Positions 1,367 through 6,441 of a stretch of DNA of 6,799 nucleotides are shown piece after piece. A program made the position numbers and the translations under genes. A model generated the notes under the pieces. The model had not been told where the DNA came from. It ran no database searches and worked only from the letters and a program-made list of their open reading frames with translations. Each line of letters starts with the position of its first letter. Within the stretch, counting starts at the first letter, position 1. This DNA is from Candidatus Hydrogenedentota bacterium (GTDB lineage Bacteria; Hydrogenedentota; Hydrogenedentia; Hydrogenedentales; JAGMZX01), in contig JAKQEQ010000040.1 in the NCBI GenBank assembly GCA_029556545.1, forward strand, positions 1 to 6,799. The letters are read 5' to 3'.

Positions 1367-1564
1367 TCATGTCTTTCCTCTCCGCGCGATGGCGCAGGCG
1401 TCCGCGGGGCATCCCCGCATCGTCACCATGTCCGCGAGCCGCTTCACGTTGTCCCAGACCACGGCGTTCACCTTCGCCTGCAATTCGGCCTGCTCGCGCA
1501 GGTTGTCCAGGACGGAATTGAGCGGACACTGTTCCGTGCCGCATTTCGCGTTGGGAAGCGTCAC
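1367..1564 (-). CDS. Small hypothetical protein with two CX4C pairs
   Basis: This is a 65-residue product of unknown function. It has a Cys pair near each end (C8/C13 and C52/C57) flanking a long stretch, about residues 16-48, that looks helical and amphipathic (VLDNLREQAELQAKVNAVV). The spacing would allow a disulfide-locked or metal-bound helical hairpin, but no family is recognised. Start choice: GTG at 1564 is preceded by a strong GGAGGGA site 9 bases upstream. Its GTG overlaps, as GTGA, the TGA that ends the long alternate frame of the cytosine methyltransferase locus, implying coupled translation. It is the last gene of the - strand operon before the hairpin terminator. No signal peptide or membrane segment is visible. 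Confidence 0.6.
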   Translation of the reverse strand: MTLPNAKCGTEQCPLNSVLDNLREQAELQAKVNAVVWDNVKRLADMVTMRGCPADACAIARRGKT

Positions 1565-3009
1565 CCGGTGATTCCCTCCATCAGGAGTTGCGTCTCTCCG
1601 CCGCGCTCACCCGTCGAGCAGAGCAGCGCACAGAGAGACGAATGCATAGCCCGCCGCCAGCGGGACCACTCCGTTGCCGGTAAGGCGCAGCCGATCTCCG
1701 ACCATCCCAGGGGCCAGCCCATCAACCACTCGACGAACCGCGGGTTCAAGCGACGGGTCGTGCGCGAGGATTTCCCGCCAGGCGTCGAGGGCGCCGGGGC
1801 CGGGGGCGAACAATGGCGCACGAAATTCGACAACTGGTCCAGGTGCTTCCGCCCTGACCCATTCGCCAGATGTTCCGGTCCGTTCGGACCCTTCCAGTCC
1901 CGTTCCGCCGGCGTCGGCCAGCGGGACGCGGTCTGCTTGAGTTGGATGCCGCCCTGCGCCGAGCGCGTCTCCGTCCCGGCCATCGGCGTCGGCCAGAGCG
2001 TCGCGGTCTCGACCAGGCCCACCATGCTCGACGTCATGATCTTCCGCCGTCCCGCATGGTCGGCCTCGGCGGGACGCGGCGTCGGCCACAGCGCGGCCTG
2101 CATCGCGAGCGGCGGCGTGGATACGCCGCCCTTGGCCTGGCGCTTGTACCAGTGTTCCGCCCGTTCCGCCGTCACCTTGCCCGCGCGCGGCGTCGCCCAC
2201 AACTGCGCCGTGGTCTGCAAGTCCGTCCCGCCTGAGCCGCGCGCATTCTTGGAAGCCTTCGACTCGCGTCCGCCGGTCGGCGTCTTCGGCGTTGGCCAGA
2301 GGGCAATCGCGCCCGTCAGGCTGTCCACGGCGTTCGGATGATTGCCGCACCGCTCCGCGTCCTCCGACCGGGGCGTCGGCCAACTGTTCGCCGCCATGGA
2401 CAACTCGGCATGCTCCCGCGCCTTCCCCAACGGCGTCCGTCCCGCGTGACTCGCGTCGTTGTCCTTCGGGGTCGGCCAGCCCGAGGATGAACAAGCGCTC
2501 GCGGCGATGGCTCGCGCCCACTTCCTCCGCGCTGAATAGTCCCGCCGCAACGCGGTAGCCTCGGCGCTGGAGATCTCGCCGCACGCTTCCGAATCCCATG
2601 CGCAGGTGGCCGGGGACGTTCTCGAGGAACACGCACTCGGGTTTCGCCGCGCCAATGAACGCATCAATCCACGGCCATAGATGGCGATCATCGTGGACGC
2701 CACGGCGCTTGCCCGCGACGGAGAACGGCTGGCAGGGGTAGCCCGCCGTGACGACGAGAGGACGGAACCGGCGAACGTATCCAAGGAACTCCGGGTCGCA
2801 GAGGGACTTGACGTCGTCCCAGACAGGAGCGTTATCCAGGGCCGCATCCGCCATCCGCGCCACGAGAGCGGACGCGGCGTAGGCTTCCCGTTCGACGTAC
2901 ACCACGGTGCGTACCCGTCCGCCGAGGGCGAGCTTGACGGCGAGGCCGAGCATGCCGCTTCCGGCGCAGAGGTCGGCGTGGTATAGGACGGGACGTACAG
3001 CCATGTCAT
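1561..3009 (-). CDS. Overlapping alternate frame with WPTP repeats (frame B of the C5 methyltransferase locus)
   Basis: This 482-codon frame lies over the whole cytosine methyltransferase gene. Residues 1-177 are Ser/Ala/Thr-rich and look like an out-of-frame reading. From residue 178 the character changes to ordinary protein with W-P-T-P at 178, 210, 238, 302, 338 and 364 (seven sites counting a W-A-T-P at 271), then NPRFVEWLMGWPLGW at about 422-436 and TEWSRWRRAMHSSL. I recall these blocks from phage methyltransferase-like proteins. Third-position G/C by hand in frame B versus frame A: 18/20 v 13/19 (2341-2400), 18/20 v 10/19 (2101-2160), 16/20 v 9/19 (1801-1860), 18/20 v 12/21 (1681-1740). 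Its ATG overlaps the upstream stop (ATGA) and its stop overlaps the downstream start (GTGA). It may be a separate protein, or the C-terminal half of the methyltransferase reached by a +1 shift near 2478. A single-base sequencing error is the plain alternative. Confidence 0.5.
   Translation of the reverse strand: MTWLYVPSYTTPTSAPEAACSASPSSSPSADGYAPWCTSNGKPTPRPLSWRGWRMRPWITLLSGTTSSPSATRSSLDTFAGSVLSSSRRATPASRSPSRASAVASTMIAIYGRGLMRSLARRNPSACSSRTSPATCAWDSEACGEISSAEATALRRDYSARRKWARAIAASACSSSGWPTPKDNDASHAGRTPLGKAREHAELSMAANSWPTPRSEDAERCGNHPNAVDSLTGAIALWPTPKTPTGGRESKASKNARGSGGTDLQTTAQLWATPRAGKVTAERAEHWYKRQAKGGVSTPPLAMQAALWPTPRPAEADHAGRRKIMTSSMVGLVETATLWPTPMAGTETRSAQGGIQLKQTASRWPTPAERDWKGPNGPEHLANGSGRKHLDQLSNFVRHCSPPAPAPSTPGGKSSRTTRRLNPRFVEWLMGWPLGWSEIGCALPATEWSRWRRAMHSSLCALLCSTGERGGETQLLMEGITG
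1573..1579 (-). promoter_or_regulatory. Ribosome binding site for the 65-residue gene
   Basis: On the - strand this reads GGAGGGA, 8-9 bases before the GTG at 1564. It supports a GTG start and lies inside the last codons of the alternate frame ending at 1561. Confidence 0.6.
1607..3004 (-). CDS. DNA (cytosine-5) methyltransferase (frame A)
   Basis: This 465-residue enzyme would transfer a methyl group from S-adenosylmethionine to C5 of cytosine. Motifs in order: motif I DLCAGSGMLG (11-20), an acidic SAM-ribose region YVERE (36-40), motif III VWDDVKSL (61-68), motif IV GYPCQPFS with nucleophile C91, motif VI FLENVPG with E128-N-V, motif VIII GASHRRERLFILG (about 163-175) and motif X TGNGVVP (442-448). 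Between VIII and X, where the target-recognition domain belongs, the frame turns Gly/Arg/Asp-rich with repeated LADA/LANA units, and hand-counted G/C at third positions falls from about 95% to 50-70%. In that stretch the overlapping frame B looks like the better coding frame. The ATG at 3004 lies one base after the stop of the 34-residue gene and directly precedes motif I. Either frame A is a full enzyme overlapped by a second gene, or the natural product switches frame near 2478. The enzyme class is secure; the C-terminal reading is not. Confidence 0.85.
   Translation of the reverse strand: MAVRPVLYHADLCAGSGMLGLAVKLALGGRVRTVVYVEREAYAASALVARMADAALDNAPVWDDVKSLCDPEFLGYVRRFRPLVVTAGYPCQPFSVAGKRRGVHDDRHLWPWIDAFIGAAKPECVFLENVPGHLRMGFGSVRRDLQRRGYRVAAGLFSAEEVGASHRRERLFILGLADPEGQRRESRGTDAVGEGAGACRVVHGGEQLADAPVGGRGAVRQSSERRGQPDGRDCPLANAEDADRRTRVEGFQECARLRRDGLADHGAVVGDAARGQGDGGTGGTLVQAPGQGRRIHAAARDAGRAVADAASRRGRPCGTAEDHDVEHGGPGRDRDALADADGRDGDALGAGRHPTQADRVPLADAGGTGLEGSERTGTSGEWVRAEAPGPVVEFRAPLFAPGPGALDAWREILAHDPSLEPAVRRVVDGLAPGMVGDRLRLTGNGVVPLAAGYAFVSLCAALLDG
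1910..2478. repeat. Seven dispersed GGCGTCGGCCA-type repeats in one reading phase
   Basis: A short motif close to GGCGTCGGCCA ends on the + strand at 1920, 1995, 2088, 2199, 2298, 2382 and 2478. Gaps are 75, 93, 111, 99, 84 and 96 bases, all multiples of three. On the - strand each copy encodes W-P-T-P (once W-A-T-P) in frame B and L/V-A-D/N-A/P-like units in frame A. The DNA between copies is not repeated. Conservation of phase points to protein-level selection. Confidence 0.8.
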
Positions 3010-3110
3010 TTCTTGGTCTCGAACTTCCGCCGCCTGCCGCCGCCGAAGCGGATGGTGTAGCTCAGGCGGATGCCTCTGCCGAGAATCCAGGCGAGCAATG
3101 TCTTAAGCAT
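3006..3110 (-). CDS. 34-residue basic peptide
   Basis: A very small protein that begins MLKTLLAWILGRGIR and ends in a basic tail rich in Arg and Lys (RRRKFETKK). The first half is hydrophobic enough for a short membrane-associated or amphipathic helix, but not a clear transmembrane segment. The start is well supported: AAGGAGG lies 6 bases upstream of the ATG at 3110. The ATG sits 8 bases inside the end of the lysozyme-like gene, and its own TGA overlaps the first ATG of the cytosine methyltransferase locus as ATGA. This chain of overlaps makes it part of the operon. No family is recognised. It may serve mainly to couple translation, or be a small lysis-related or DNA-binding peptide; neither role can be shown. 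Confidence 0.65.
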   Translation of the reverse strand: MLKTLLAWILGRGIRLSYTIRFGGGRRRKFETKK

Positions 3111-3669
3111 GGACGGCCTCCTTGCAGTAGCGGTCCCAGTTGGCGAGGTACTCCTCGACCGTGCCGCTCCCGGCGGGCGTGTTGTACCAGCGCTTCCAGT
3201 ACGCGGCCTGGTCGGAGAGCGAGTCCGGGATCGGGGCGCTGACGCGGAAGTAATGAAGGCGCGCGAAGAGCACGCCGATCTTGTCGTTGTCGTCCAGGCG
3301 CAGCGCCCAGAGCAGGGCGTCCATCGGAATGAGGTCTGGCCACGCAAGCGGCGCGTGCGGGTCGGCGAACAGCCAGTGCGTGGCGTTGGCCAGCACGTCG
3401 GGCCGTTGGCGCAGGTACGCCAGCGACGCCGCGACGGAGCCGGGCTCGACCTGCCATTTGCCGAAGCCGCCGACCTTGCCCTCGAACCGGGGCGCGCGTT
3501 GCCGTTCCCACGTCAGGTTGCTCTCCTGAGCAGCGGTGCCGAACAGCAGGCGCGCCGTCCGATCCGCGTACGCCGGCGACGGCGGCTTCGCGCCGTACAC
3601 CGTGGCCGCGCAGCCCTGACACAGCCGCCAGACGCGGCGGGCGTTGTCCTTCATCGTCGTGGATTCCAT
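3103..3669 (-). CDS. Phage lysozyme-fold / transglycosylase-like protein (putative peptidoglycan hydrolase)
   Basis: This 188-residue protein resembles phage proteins with a lysozyme-like fold. A GTAAQESN motif at about 44-51 places a candidate catalytic glutamate at E49. GGFGKWQVEP (68-76) matches the G-x-x-Q-x-E/P strand region seen after the catalytic Glu in such proteins. The C-terminal YWKRWYNTPAGSGT (157-170) recalls the WKxxYNTxxGxGT block I know from phage hypothetical proteins. There is no signal peptide or transmembrane segment, so export would need a holin or a virion. Start: ATG at 3669 overlaps the methyltransferase stop as TGATG, with GGGGAG 6 bases upstream; an internal Met6 at 3654 is possible. 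It lies between two DNA methyltransferase genes, an odd place for a lysis gene. The fold call is from remembered family patterns and is moderate; cell-wall cleavage is inference. Confidence 0.55.
   Translation of the reverse strand: MESTTMKDNARRVWRLCQGCAATVYGAKPPSPAYADRTARLLFGTAAQESNLTWERQRAPRFEGKVGGFGKWQVEPGSVAASLAYLRQRPDVLANATHWLFADPHAPLAWPDLIPMDALLWALRLDDNDKIGVLFARLHYFRVSAPIPDSLSDQAAYWKRWYNTPAGSGTVEEYLANWDRYCKEAVHA
3117..3123 (-). promoter_or_regulatory. Perfect Shine-Dalgarno for the 34-residue gene
   Basis: The - strand reads AAGGAGG then a 6-base spacer and ATG. It is the best-matching ribosome binding site in the window and is embedded in the last codons of the lysozyme-like gene. Confidence 0.7.
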
Positions 3670-5075
3670 CACTCGCTCCCCGTGGCGCAGGCGGGCAGTT
3701 CCCGCTGCGTGGTTTTGGATTCCGCGTCCCGCAGCCGCGCCGCGGCGAGTTCGCAGTACGCGGGGTTGAGTTCGATGCCGATAAAGCGCCGCCCGTGCTC
3801 GATGGCGACCGCGCCCGCCGTGCCGCTGCCCGCGAAGGGGTCCAGCACGACACACGGAACGGCGCCGACGTCCGAACACGAACACGCGGGTTCCCAGCCG
3901 AGCGTCGCCCGGGCAGTCTCCCAGCCGCGCTCCGGGGCGGGGGCCTTGCCGCGCCGGTGCTCCGGCAGGCTGTGCGTGCGGCCTCTGTTGTCCGGCTTGC
4001 CGCGCTTCACGGCCACGATGCGCCTGCGCGGCGCGCCGCACCGCGCGCAGCAGCCGTCCGCGCTCGTGCCCGCGAGAATGCAGGGTTCGACGAGCTTGGG
4101 CGGGAAGACCGCGAAATGCGCGCCCTTGTACGGCTTGGTGGCGATGCTCCAGACGGTGCGCCGGTTGCGGTGCGTCTGGGAACGTGCGTACTCGCCGCCC
4201 ATGTACCTGCCCAGATGGTTCTGCGGGCCGCCGCCCTTGTAGCTCCGCTGCGAGTTTCCGTTCCAGCCGCTCTGCACGCGGGGCATGGACGAGGCTTTCA
4301 TGGGTTCGCTCACGGCGTCCGCGTCATAGAAGTACCGCTCGGATCTGGCGAGGAGGAACACGTACTCGTGGGCGCGCGTGGGCCGGTCGCGCACACTTTC
4401 TGGCATACAATTTTCCTTGGCCCACAGGATGTCTGACCGCAGGTACCAGCCGTCCGCCTGCAAGGCCAGCGCGACCCTCCAAGGAATCCCGACAAGGTCC
4501 TTGGCCTTGAGTCCCTTCTGGGGCAGGCTGTTCGCGGGCCGCCAGGTCCGATCGTCGTAGGCCGCGCGCTTGAACCGCGTGCCGCTCCATCCCTCGGACG
4601 GAACCGGCGTGTGCGGGCTGTAGTTGCCCCAACTCCCGGCATAGCTGTCGCCGAGGTTCAGCCAGAACGTGCCGTCGGGACGCAGGACGCGGCGGACCTC
4701 GCGGAACACAAGTACCAGGTGCTCGACGTACAGGTCCGGCGTAGGTTCCAGTCCAAGTTCGCCGCGCCAGGCGCCGCACCGGGCGCAGAAGGCGTTGCGG
4801 ACCGGCTTGTCCCGGTCCAGCGACCCCATGTTGACGAGTTGCTGGCGTTCGTTGCCTCCGCCGTCGCTGGTGCGGCGGACATAGGAGGCGTCCTGCCAAT
4901 CATGGGCGCAGTCCGGGGTGCCGCCCCAGGTCTGCGGGTCTGTGCCGTAGTCGCGGAGACCCCAGTAGGGCGGGGACGTGACGCAGCAGTGGACGCTCGC
5001 GTCCGGCAGGCCGCGCAGCACGTCGAGGCAGCCGCCCTGATGCAGTTCCCAGTTGTGGCCGGAGGAATGCAGCAT
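3669..5075 (-). CDS. DNA amino-methyltransferase, TSPPY type (N4-cytosine or N6-adenine)
   Basis: This 468-residue SAM-dependent enzyme would methylate an exocyclic amino group. Motif IV, TSPPYWGLRDYG, lies at 33-44 and motif I, DPFAGSGT, at 412-419, followed by FIGIELNPAYCELA. The catalytic motif before the SAM motif is the beta-class order. Between them are the characteristic phage-type blocks LRPDGTFWLNLGDSYAG (131-147), KDLVGIPWRVALALQADGWYLRSD (192-215), RPTRAHEYVFLL (231-242) and NRRTVWSIATKPY (304-316). Cysteine groups C57, C97/C100, C343/C346 and C398/C400 suggest one or two zinc sites. TSPPY is found in both N4C and N6A enzymes, so the product base is not decided. Start: ATG at 5075 has ACGGAGG 9 bases upstream. 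The frame is open to a TTG at 5207, adding 44 residues with CPLC, a weaker choice. It appears to be the first gene of the - strand operon. Confidence 0.92.
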   Translation of the reverse strand: MLHSSGHNWELHQGGCLDVLRGLPDASVHCCVTSPPYWGLRDYGTDPQTWGGTPDCAHDWQDASYVRRTSDGGGNERQQLVNMGSLDRDKPVRNAFCARCGAWRGELGLEPTPDLYVEHLVLVFREVRRVLRPDGTFWLNLGDSYAGSWGNYSPHTPVPSEGWSGTRFKRAAYDDRTWRPANSLPQKGLKAKDLVGIPWRVALALQADGWYLRSDILWAKENCMPESVRDRPTRAHEYVFLLARSERYFYDADAVSEPMKASSMPRVQSGWNGNSQRSYKGGGPQNHLGRYMGGEYARSQTHRNRRTVWSIATKPYKGAHFAVFPPKLVEPCILAGTSADGCCARCGAPRRRIVAVKRGKPDNRGRTHSLPEHRRGKAPAPERGWETARATLGWEPACSCSDVGAVPCVVLDPFAGSGTAGAVAIEHGRRFIGIELNPAYCELAAARLRDAESKTTQRELPACATGSE

Positions 5076-5084
5076 CAGGCGGCG

Positions 5085-5091
5085 CCTCCGT
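5085..5091 (-). promoter_or_regulatory. Ribosome binding site deciding the methyltransferase start
   Basis: The - strand reads ACGGAGG, 9 bases before ATG 5075. This favours the 468-residue form over the TTG-initiated extension starting at 5207. Confidence 0.6.
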
Positions 5092-5164
5092 TGGCCGAAC
5101 AGGCCGCCGACGTTGCCCCACGTGCCGCGACAGAGCGGGCAGTGGGGCGGTGCGCCGCGTGGCG

Positions 5165-5198
5165 AGCCGGAAGCGGCTTTTGGGGGCCGTCTCCGGCC
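5165..5198. other. Two adjacent short hairpins in the gap before the methyltransferase
   Basis: AGCCG (5165-5169) pairs with CGGCT (5174-5178) and is followed on the + strand by TTTT. Next to it, GGCCG (5185-5189) pairs with CGGCC (5194-5198). They lie in the 194-base stretch 5076-5269, between the divergent starts of the methyltransferase and the small + strand gene. They could form a weak + strand terminator preventing antisense transcription, or a 5' leader structure on the - strand. No convincing -10/-35 pair was found here; TTGACT at 5212-5217 is only a weak -35 candidate. Confidence 0.3.
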
Positions 5199-5269
5199 GC
5201 CCTGCAAAGACTTGACTTCCCGCCCACATGCAAGCGATGAATCGGGTAGATGACGGCAGGAGAAGAAGC

Positions 5270-5484: not shown

Positions 5485-6441
5485 TCATAGCAGGTCCTCG
5501 TCCGTGACGAGCGGCGCGCCGGTCGCGGCGTCCGCCTCGACACCTTCCACCTGTTGCCCCAGCGCCTCGCGCGCAATCCCCGCAATCTGTTCCAACTGGC
5601 CGCGCAGGCCGTCCAGAGTTTCCTCTTTCTGCCCGCACACCCACAGAATGCTCACCAAGGCGTCGCGGCATTCCTGAGCGTCGCCGGGAACGAACGCAGG
5701 CGGGTTTTCTTCAGCGGCGGGTGTGGGCTGTGCAGGTCTCTGTTTCCGCTTGCGCCACATTTCGGCGAGTTCGTGAAGGCTGCCCCAGTCGTGGGATGCC
5801 GCATCCAGGTGTTCGCGCGGCATTTGCGCAAGTGTGATGATGTCCTTCTTGGAAAGGCCGGTCGCGCCCGCAAGCACGTCGGAACGGAATTCAACGCCGA
5901 AGAGTCCGGCCAGCGCGTCAAGGGCTTCCGTAAATTGAGCGTCACGCCGGATGGTCCGCTCGGTTACGTTGTATGCCCTCGCCAGACGCCGGGCGGTCTT
6001 GTCTTCGGTCTCGTTTGCCGATGGCTTGGGGGGCTGTTCTTCCGGGGAAACGTCCGCCGAGTGGACACCGTGTCCACTCGAAAAACATTGGGCTTTTTGA
6101 AGGTTCTCCGCCGGGTCGCGCCGCTGTTCCTGGTACCGTTGGCCTCGGTAGTAGGCGATTTCCTCCGGCGGCAGATTCCTGCGCCCCAACTGGTGCCCGA
6201 TGATCCAGAGCCGGGCGGCGTCGCGAGATTCGAACTCCAGGCCCGCCGTGGTGAAGGGGATGCCGTGGCGCCGACATAGGCGCAAACGATGGTGTCCGTC
6301 GAGCAGGATGTTGTGCGGCGCCCAGACCACGAGGGGACTCAGTGCCCCGTCGTCCAGCAGGCTGCACTCAAGCTGCCGGAGTTCCTGTTCGGAAAGGGGC
6401 GGGATGAGACGCTCAAATTCGGGATCGACGACGATGTCCAC
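5485..6441 (-). CDS. ParB-like (ParB/Srx fold) DNA-binding protein
   Basis: This 318-residue protein has the ParB N-terminal fold: IPPLSEQELRQLECSL (13-28), LVVWAPHNILLDGHHRLRLC (37-56) with the family DGHHR core, and WIIGHQLGRRNLPPEEIAYY (79-98). A linker (about 105-147) leads to a helix-turn-helix, ARAYNVTERTIRRD (154-167). The remainder is a charged helical tail with a predicted coiled stretch near 270-295 and an acidic end. Proteins of this type in phages and integrative elements act in partition, in transcription control or, in some, as nucleases. No ParA is visible, so partition is not established. Start: GTG at 6441 with GGAGG 6 bases upstream; that site is inside an inverted repeat, which suggests control of translation or self-repression. 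A perfect 23-bp palindrome inside the gene could be its binding site. The fold assignment is secure; the cellular role is open. Confidence 0.85.
   Translation of the reverse strand: MDIVVDPEFERLIPPLSEQELRQLECSLLDDGALSPLVVWAPHNILLDGHHRLRLCRRHGIPFTTAGLEFESRDAARLWIIGHQLGRRNLPPEEIAYYRGQRYQEQRRDPAENLQKAQCFSSGHGVHSADVSPEEQPPKPSANETEDKTARRLARAYNVTERTIRRDAQFTEALDALAGLFGVEFRSDVLAGATGLSKKDIITLAQMPREHLDAASHDWGSLHELAEMWRKRKQRPAQPTPAAEENPPAFVPGDAQECRDALVSILWVCGQKEETLDGLRGQLEQIAGIAREALGQQVEGVEADAATGAPLVTDEDLL
6058..6080. repeat. 23-bp perfect palindrome inside the ParB-like gene
   Basis: Arms CGAGTGGACAC and GTGTCCACTCG (11 bp each) flank a single central C at 6069. The palindrome encodes part of the linker between the ParB fold and the helix-turn-helix. 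Its size and symmetry suit a dimeric DNA-binding protein site. It is unlike the common chromosomal parS sequence. No second copy was noticed in the window. Confidence 0.75.

Follow-up and report, generated by a model that had tools for sequence, protein, structure and literature searches.

A C5-cytosine DNA methyltransferase locus in two overlapping reading frames, best read as a split enzyme

The window analysed here is an entire contig of 6.8 kb (6,799 nucleotides) from a source genome of 6.1 Mb. Its minus strand carries two long ORFs that overlap almost completely, frame B being frame A+1. We observed that this is a real, conserved two-frame methyltransferase locus: both frames are open and conserved among homologues, and the phase of constraint switches at the motif VIII and the IX/X borders. 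The locus very probably encodes an orphan two-subunit C5-cytosine DNA methyltransferase from two overlapping genes. Frame A (alpha) would make the large domain, with SAM binding and catalysis (motifs I-VIII), onto which motif X would pack back, and frame B (beta) would make the small domain, with a target-recognition region of WPTP repeats and motif IX. Each would be translated on its own, from start codons that nearly coincide, and the two polypeptides would assemble on DNA into one enzyme, like M.EcoHK31I. We infer that A and B associate, that the assembly methylates DNA and that both chains are needed for this; its role may be to protect the DNA of the phage-like element.

The two frames and their motifs

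Both ORFs that the initial annotation had placed at 1607-3004 (A) and 1561-3009 (B) were present. Plotting the GC content of the window by codon position, we observed values of 0.75-0.80 at position 3 of A from 3004 to 2525, and of 0.85-0.97 at position 1 of A, which is position 3 of B, from 2404 to 1925; the third-position switch from A to B, proposed earlier from hand counts, is therefore real. The two blocks quoted earlier for the same bases at 1650-1740 were also recovered. Between 1650 and 1750, frame A reads LEPAVRRVVDGL (1715-1750) and LTGNGVVP (1661-1684), and frame B reads LNPRFVEWLMGWPLGWSE (1696-1749) and LPATEWSRW (1657-1683). The probability of a fully open B was 0.0004 under A-synonymous codon shuffles and that of a fully open A was 0.0002 under B-synonymous shuffles, so the openness of both frames exceeds chance for the window alone. 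A tandem repeat finder returned no arrays in the window. The features of the locus are listed in Table 1.

Table 1. Features of the two-frame methyltransferase locus (window coordinates)
Feature	Position	Strand	Basis
Frame A ORF (alpha), 465 aa; motifs I-VIII, long linker, motif X	1607..3004	-	Pfam, PHROG, AF2, M.HhaI alignment
Frame B ORF (beta), 482 aa, A+1; WPTP repeats (presumed target-recognition region) and motif IX	1561..3009	-	PHROG, homologue layout, B-phase constraint
Overlapping start region ATGACATG; B ATG at 3009, A ATG at 3004	3002..3009	-	Sequence, start-offset survey
34-aa leader ORF, AAGGAGG in front; TGA overlaps frame B ATG (ATGA)	3006..3110	-	Sequence
Frame A motif I, DLCAGSGMLG	2945..2974	-	Sequence
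Frame A motif IV, PCQPFS with catalytic Cys	2720..2737	-	Sequence, M.HhaI alignment
Frame A motif VI, ENV	2615..2623	-	Sequence
Frame A motif VIII, RRERLF	2489..2506	-	Sequence
Frame B repeat 1, WPTPKDND, immediately past A motif VIII	2455..2478	-	Sequence
Frame B repeat 2, WPTPRSED	2359..2382	-	Sequence
Frame B repeat 3, WPTPKTPT	2275..2298	-	Sequence
Frame B repeat 4, WATPRAGK	2176..2199	-	Sequence
Frame B repeat 5, WPTPRPAE	2065..2088	-	Sequence
Frame B repeat 6, WPTPMAGT	1972..1995	-	Sequence
Frame B repeat 7, WPTPAERD	1897..1920	-	Sequence
Frame A conserved element LFAPGPGALDAW, overlaps frame B (dual-constraint zone)	1778..1813	-	36 homologues, sequence
Frame B motif IX, LNPRFVEWLMGWPLGWSE	1696..1749	-	Sequence; L071 block versus M.HhaI, weak but in register
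Frame A motif X, LTGNGVVP	1661..1684	-	Profile search, sequence

The two translations were searched separately, and each proved to be family-like, as the initial annotation had held. Frame A matched Pfam DNA_methylase (PF00145; 3.6e-20, residues 11-178) and phrog_363 (7.3e-42, residues 9-452). Frame B matched phrog_1008 'DNA methyltransferase' (1.3e-31) and phrog_27243 (1.3e-18), and gave no significant match to Pfam. The motif assignments made before were confirmed: motifs I, IV (PCQ), VI (ENV) and VIII of the C5-methyltransferases are ordered within the single chain of frame A, motif X (LTGNGVVP) shares that chain, and frame B has seven W[PA]TP repeats (six WPTP, one WATP). Motif IX and the target-recognition region are not in the frame A chain; profile searches and phase tests placed both in frame B.

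In a PDB search frame A matched M.HhaI by sequence, with motif IV and its catalytic Cys aligned. The AF2 model of A had a pLDDT of about 92 over residues 1-190 and about 33 over residues 192-386, rising up to 97 in the motif X helix. Compared with M.HhaI, the model gave a Z of 22 over about 197 of 327 residues, which came from both chain ends and covered the large domain only; 197 residues is the size of the M.HhaI large domain. Judged from this model, the middle of A (∼200 residues) is best explained as an unfolded connector between the catalytic domain and motif X, and A resembles a large domain that lacks its small partner, which B may supply. Since motif IX and the constrained middle lie in B and the middle of A is unfolded in the model, we place the locus among the split C5-methyltransferases and not among the monomeric ones. 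Within the element LFAPGPGALDAW of frame A, residues P401, P403 and W409 were invariant in 36 homologues.

The frame B block LNPRFVEWLMGWP carries motif IX, which, like the split-enzyme precedent, the initial annotation had left unnamed. In the single-frame relative L071 the corresponding block shares a chain with motif X, and the PDB search aligned its 'rlsprfvewlmglpdgw...kalgngvv' to 'RKLHPRECARVMGYPDSY...KQFGNSVV' of M.HhaI with a weak score and with register and order right. The L071 block thereby stands opposite motif IX of M.HhaI, LHPRECARVMGYPDSY (weak score, in register), and the B block is therefore read as the motif IX that A lacks. PDB sequence searches with frame B or with a motif IX profile gave no match, and the AF2 model of B was poor (pTM 0.22), with its highest local confidence near motif IX. 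The absence of a fold match for B would suit a reading in which both proteins are made and B is an independent factor (anti-restriction or regulatory, for example) instead of an enzyme subunit. This reading is very unlikely, as B carries the motif IX lacking in A, and in single-frame relatives this block is part of the methyltransferase chain itself and aligns to M.HhaI motif IX.

The first ∼170 residues of B are best explained as a mirror of the catalytic motifs of A. The N-terminal blocks WKTxQ and TWPRWGxMRNG of B were dropped as independent evidence because motifs VI and VIII of A force them.

Constraint on both frames across homologous loci

We gathered about 240 loci from viral contigs, bacterial genomes, phages and plasmids by queries with B, with A and with an alignment of the B-frame motif IX, and placed the motifs by profile searches in every frame. 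The set was thus seeded partly by the B motif, the frame relation itself being outside the query. Motifs I-VIII and X shared one frame, with motif IX in A+1, in 206 of 248 loci; 165 of these were unique and belong to phages, prophages and plasmids. This share describes the gathered set and not all methyltransferases. The hosts include Pseudomonas, Acinetobacter, alphaproteobacteria, myxobacteria and several uncultivated phyla. Among the finished records with this layout are Leptospira, Bacteroides and Acinetobacter plasmids, and Salmonella, Lacticaseibacillus and Mycobacterium phages. In most loci the first WPTP of B begins directly past motif VIII of A, and among homologues B often stops directly past motif IX (GWTEL*). 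Both phrog_363 (A) and phrog_1008 (B) matched the same loci in different frames, which bears out the earlier proposal that the two families are shifted readings of the same DNA.

Among the possibilities listed earlier was a single-frame gene, decayed or mis-sequenced, with an indel near 2478, and single-frame relatives do exist. However, all motifs were found in a single intact frame in only about 10 unique loci, mostly actinophage-like, versus the 165 with two frames, which come from many assemblies and from finished phage and plasmid records and have both frames open. As so many unique loci share the layout, this explanation is excluded.

We then compared the stops in these loci with those expected from synonymous codon shuffles over the uninterrupted loci; the homologues share ancestry, so these counts and those of the layout do not represent independent trials. 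Between motifs VIII and IX, B had 0 stops versus 183 expected (A-synonymous shuffle) and was open in 166/166 loci, and A had 0 versus 531 expected (B-synonymous shuffle). Upstream of motif VIII, B had 88 stops versus 364 expected and was open in 109 loci versus 19 expected. The controls were close to expectation: the +2 frame of the same genes had 977 versus 975 and 839 versus 913 expected stops, and the +1 frame of neighbour genes had 1133 versus 1152. A was interrupted in 11 of 166 loci. In E. coli 23CRST032 (L260, 1201-1962), the record lists A as a pseudogene carrying a stop within it, and a B stop lies a few bases away, both frames being interrupted together.

Codon-phase variation was followed in eight clusters of close relatives, by pairwise counts within clusters that are not independent events. 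Over motifs I-VIII the most variable codon position was A3; between VIII and IX it was A1 (= B3) in 8/8 clusters; around IX it was mixed, and around X it was back to A3 on pooled counts. In the middle segment, amino-acid differences were larger in A than in B in every tabulated cluster (for example, 0.659 versus 0.370), and four-fold sites varied more in B than in A (0.606 versus 0.136 in the Pseudomonas cluster). A comparison of constraint per frame over homologous loci had been proposed; on these pairwise counts the amino acids of B are more conserved than those of A in the middle. Near motif X the four-fold sites of A vary freely (0.549) in the class in which B ends directly past IX. They were low in most other clusters (0.13-0.29, one at 0.40), from which the B tail is probably constrained there too. 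Stop depletion and substitution phase together support conserved overlapping coding, the overprinting option of the initial annotation.

With all the catalytic motifs in A, a GC content of 70% and an N-terminal similarity of B partly forced by A motifs VI-VIII, one could suppose that A is the sole gene and B an accidental open frame in GC-rich DNA. We consider this highly improbable: the stop depletion persists at low GC, the middle is constrained in the B phase and motif IX is in B only. Some unrelated two-frame loci, finished plasmid and phage records among them, are at 42-50% GC, and their +2 frame is full of stops.

Several loci divide the motifs in other ways. Streptomyces phage Lilbooboo (L254, 1392-2448) has motifs I-VIII in gp32, and gp33, in the +1 frame, has LPTP repeats with motifs IX and X. 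In L258 (a Megaera plasmid), L067, L069, L078 and L084 the LPTP repeats lie in A+1, B stops just before IX, and IX and X lie in A, which is a third division between frames. The AquI-like Lilbooboo arrangement and the members with only the LPTP segment in +1 indicate that the frame border has moved in evolution. Komagataeibacter phage phiKX1 (L003, 2560-3800) represents a more divergent class, with GEQV replacing ENV, no recognisable motif X, and WPTP/RWLMGFP in +1.

Start codons and probable translation of frame B

In the 122 loci with a long B, the B start opens an M(S/T)WLYVP-type peptide, and in 115 of them an A start lies at exactly +2 (53), -4 (39) or +5 (23) bases from it. A Shine-Dalgarno-like word was found upstream of the B start in 93/122 loci, and a B-frame stop at most 30 bases upstream of it in 80/122. 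Examples of the start pairs are ATGTGG, with ATG for B and GTG for A, and GGAGGATAAATGAATG in Pseudomonas. The pair in the window is ATGACATG, with only a weak ribosome-binding site directly before both ATGs; since the TGA of the leader ORF overlaps the B ATG, translational coupling from the leader to B is plausible from the sequence. These arrangements suggest coincident starts and separate products for the two frames.

In about 30% of loci there are stops in B upstream of motif VIII, and B must therefore start internally there, which comes nearer to nesting; several of these loci have a Shine-Dalgarno-like word. In one class an internal ATG at -65 is conserved; we dropped it as evidence, as it is forced by the A residues Tyr-Gly.

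Programmed frameshifting would instead join motifs I-VIII of A to B by a +1 shift near 2478, perhaps with a shift back for motif X. The first WPTP of B stands right past motif VIII in most loci and single-frame relatives keep the same order in one chain, both as this mechanism would have it. We nevertheless regard it as unlikely. A frameshift needs no open middle in A, yet 0 stops were found versus 531 expected, and needs no open B upstream, yet there were 88 versus 364. Two shifts would be required to regain motif X. Moreover, L013 has a B-frame stop just past motif VIII (and no good B start), and a B start codon stands beside the A start in many loci. As A is stop-free through the region that would be skipped and B is mostly stop-free upstream, the programmed shift at about 2478 that had been suggested is unneeded and poorly supported. 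Separate translation of A and B, as two overlapping genes, is the reading that we retain.

Neighbour genes, significance and known systems

On the plus strand of the window, a stand-alone ORF resembling an integrase N-terminus (11-406; phrog_1, 9.6e-10) directly precedes a full tyrosine recombinase (99-1301; Phage_integrase, 5.8e-39). The two integrase-like ORFs suggest a mobile element. A second DNA methyltransferase (3669-5207, minus strand; N6_N4_Mtase 1.3e-41, phrog_67) is encoded upstream of the locus and in the same direction, which gives the element two methyltransferases of different kinds; the window has no recognisable restriction enzyme. A ParB-like protein (5485-6441, minus strand; phrog_2159 1.7e-5, phrog_21315 5.5e-7) is found at the far contig end. 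In the window's own phylum phrog_1008 is rare (2 of 68 genomes, the second copy being L263), as expected for a mobile gene.

To our knowledge, bacteria and phages seldom have same-strand overlaps that run for several hundred codons with each frame under constraint over a structural domain of its own. In this locus the frames change over where, in a well-studied enzyme, the large domain gives way to the small one. In public annotation one frame or the other is kept and its partner is lost: among 13 annotated two-frame records examined, six list B, seven list A and none lists both. In L001, L002, L003, L247, L248 and L250 only B is annotated (as 'hypothetical protein' or methyltransferase), and the catalytic A is missed. 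Cloning or methylome work that expresses the annotated frame alone would be expected to yield an inactive enzyme. The loci could also serve for studying dual-start translation and how a split can give rise to overlapping genes.

A broader reading, which we hold to be evenly poised between right and wrong, is that these loci form a very large and mostly overlooked class of phage C5-methyltransferases in which both frames are coding over their full length. Two overlapping starts (such as ATGTGG or ATGAATG) behind one ribosome-binding region would yield both subunits together. Mobility of the border would give rise to the EcoHK31I-like and AquI-like forms, the forms with the recognition region only in +1 and the single-frame forms. 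Because the border can move, recognition regions of different repeat number would be exchangeable with the catalytic frame untouched.

The target of M.EcoHK31I is YGGCCR, and Lee et al. are said to have described in 1995 a small reading frame of EcoHK31I inside the large one, in another frame. In M.EcoHK31I the larger polypeptide holds motifs I-VIII and X and the smaller one holds motif IX; M.AquI has motifs I-VIII in one chain and both IX and X in its second (PMC3404938). Our literature search on overlapping-frame phage methyltransferases, with REBASE and most subscription papers outside it, found only mentions of these two enzymes.

The window resembles M.EcoHK31I in the division of motifs, with I-VIII and X in the large chain and IX in the small one, and in encoding two chains in overlapping, different frames. 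In contrast to M.EcoHK31I, B matches A in length, its start is next to that of A and not nested within A, it carries tandem WPTP repeats, and there is no adjacent restriction enzyme in the window. The recognition region also differs in place: the phase test puts it in B here, whereas the 2012 paper placed the predicted M.EcoHK31I TRD in the large subunit (PMC3404938). M.AquI is likewise a natural two-polypeptide C5-methyltransferase split in the variable region (PMC3404938), but the window has motif X in its first polypeptide and a complete overlap; IX and X together in the second chain, as in M.AquI, were found only in Lilbooboo. To M.HhaI the match is that of the frame A catalytic large domain and motif X. 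Unlike M.HhaI and the other monomeric C5-methyltransferases, A is without a counterpart of the small domain, and motif IX and the recognition region are in the other frame. In the PHROG collection, phrog_363 and phrog_1008, which match the A-frame and B-frame readings, are filed as two 'DNA methyltransferase' families without note of their shared DNA, although they are mirror readings of one locus type. The locus is best read as a split enzyme from overlapping genes, of a kind that is known but little noticed.
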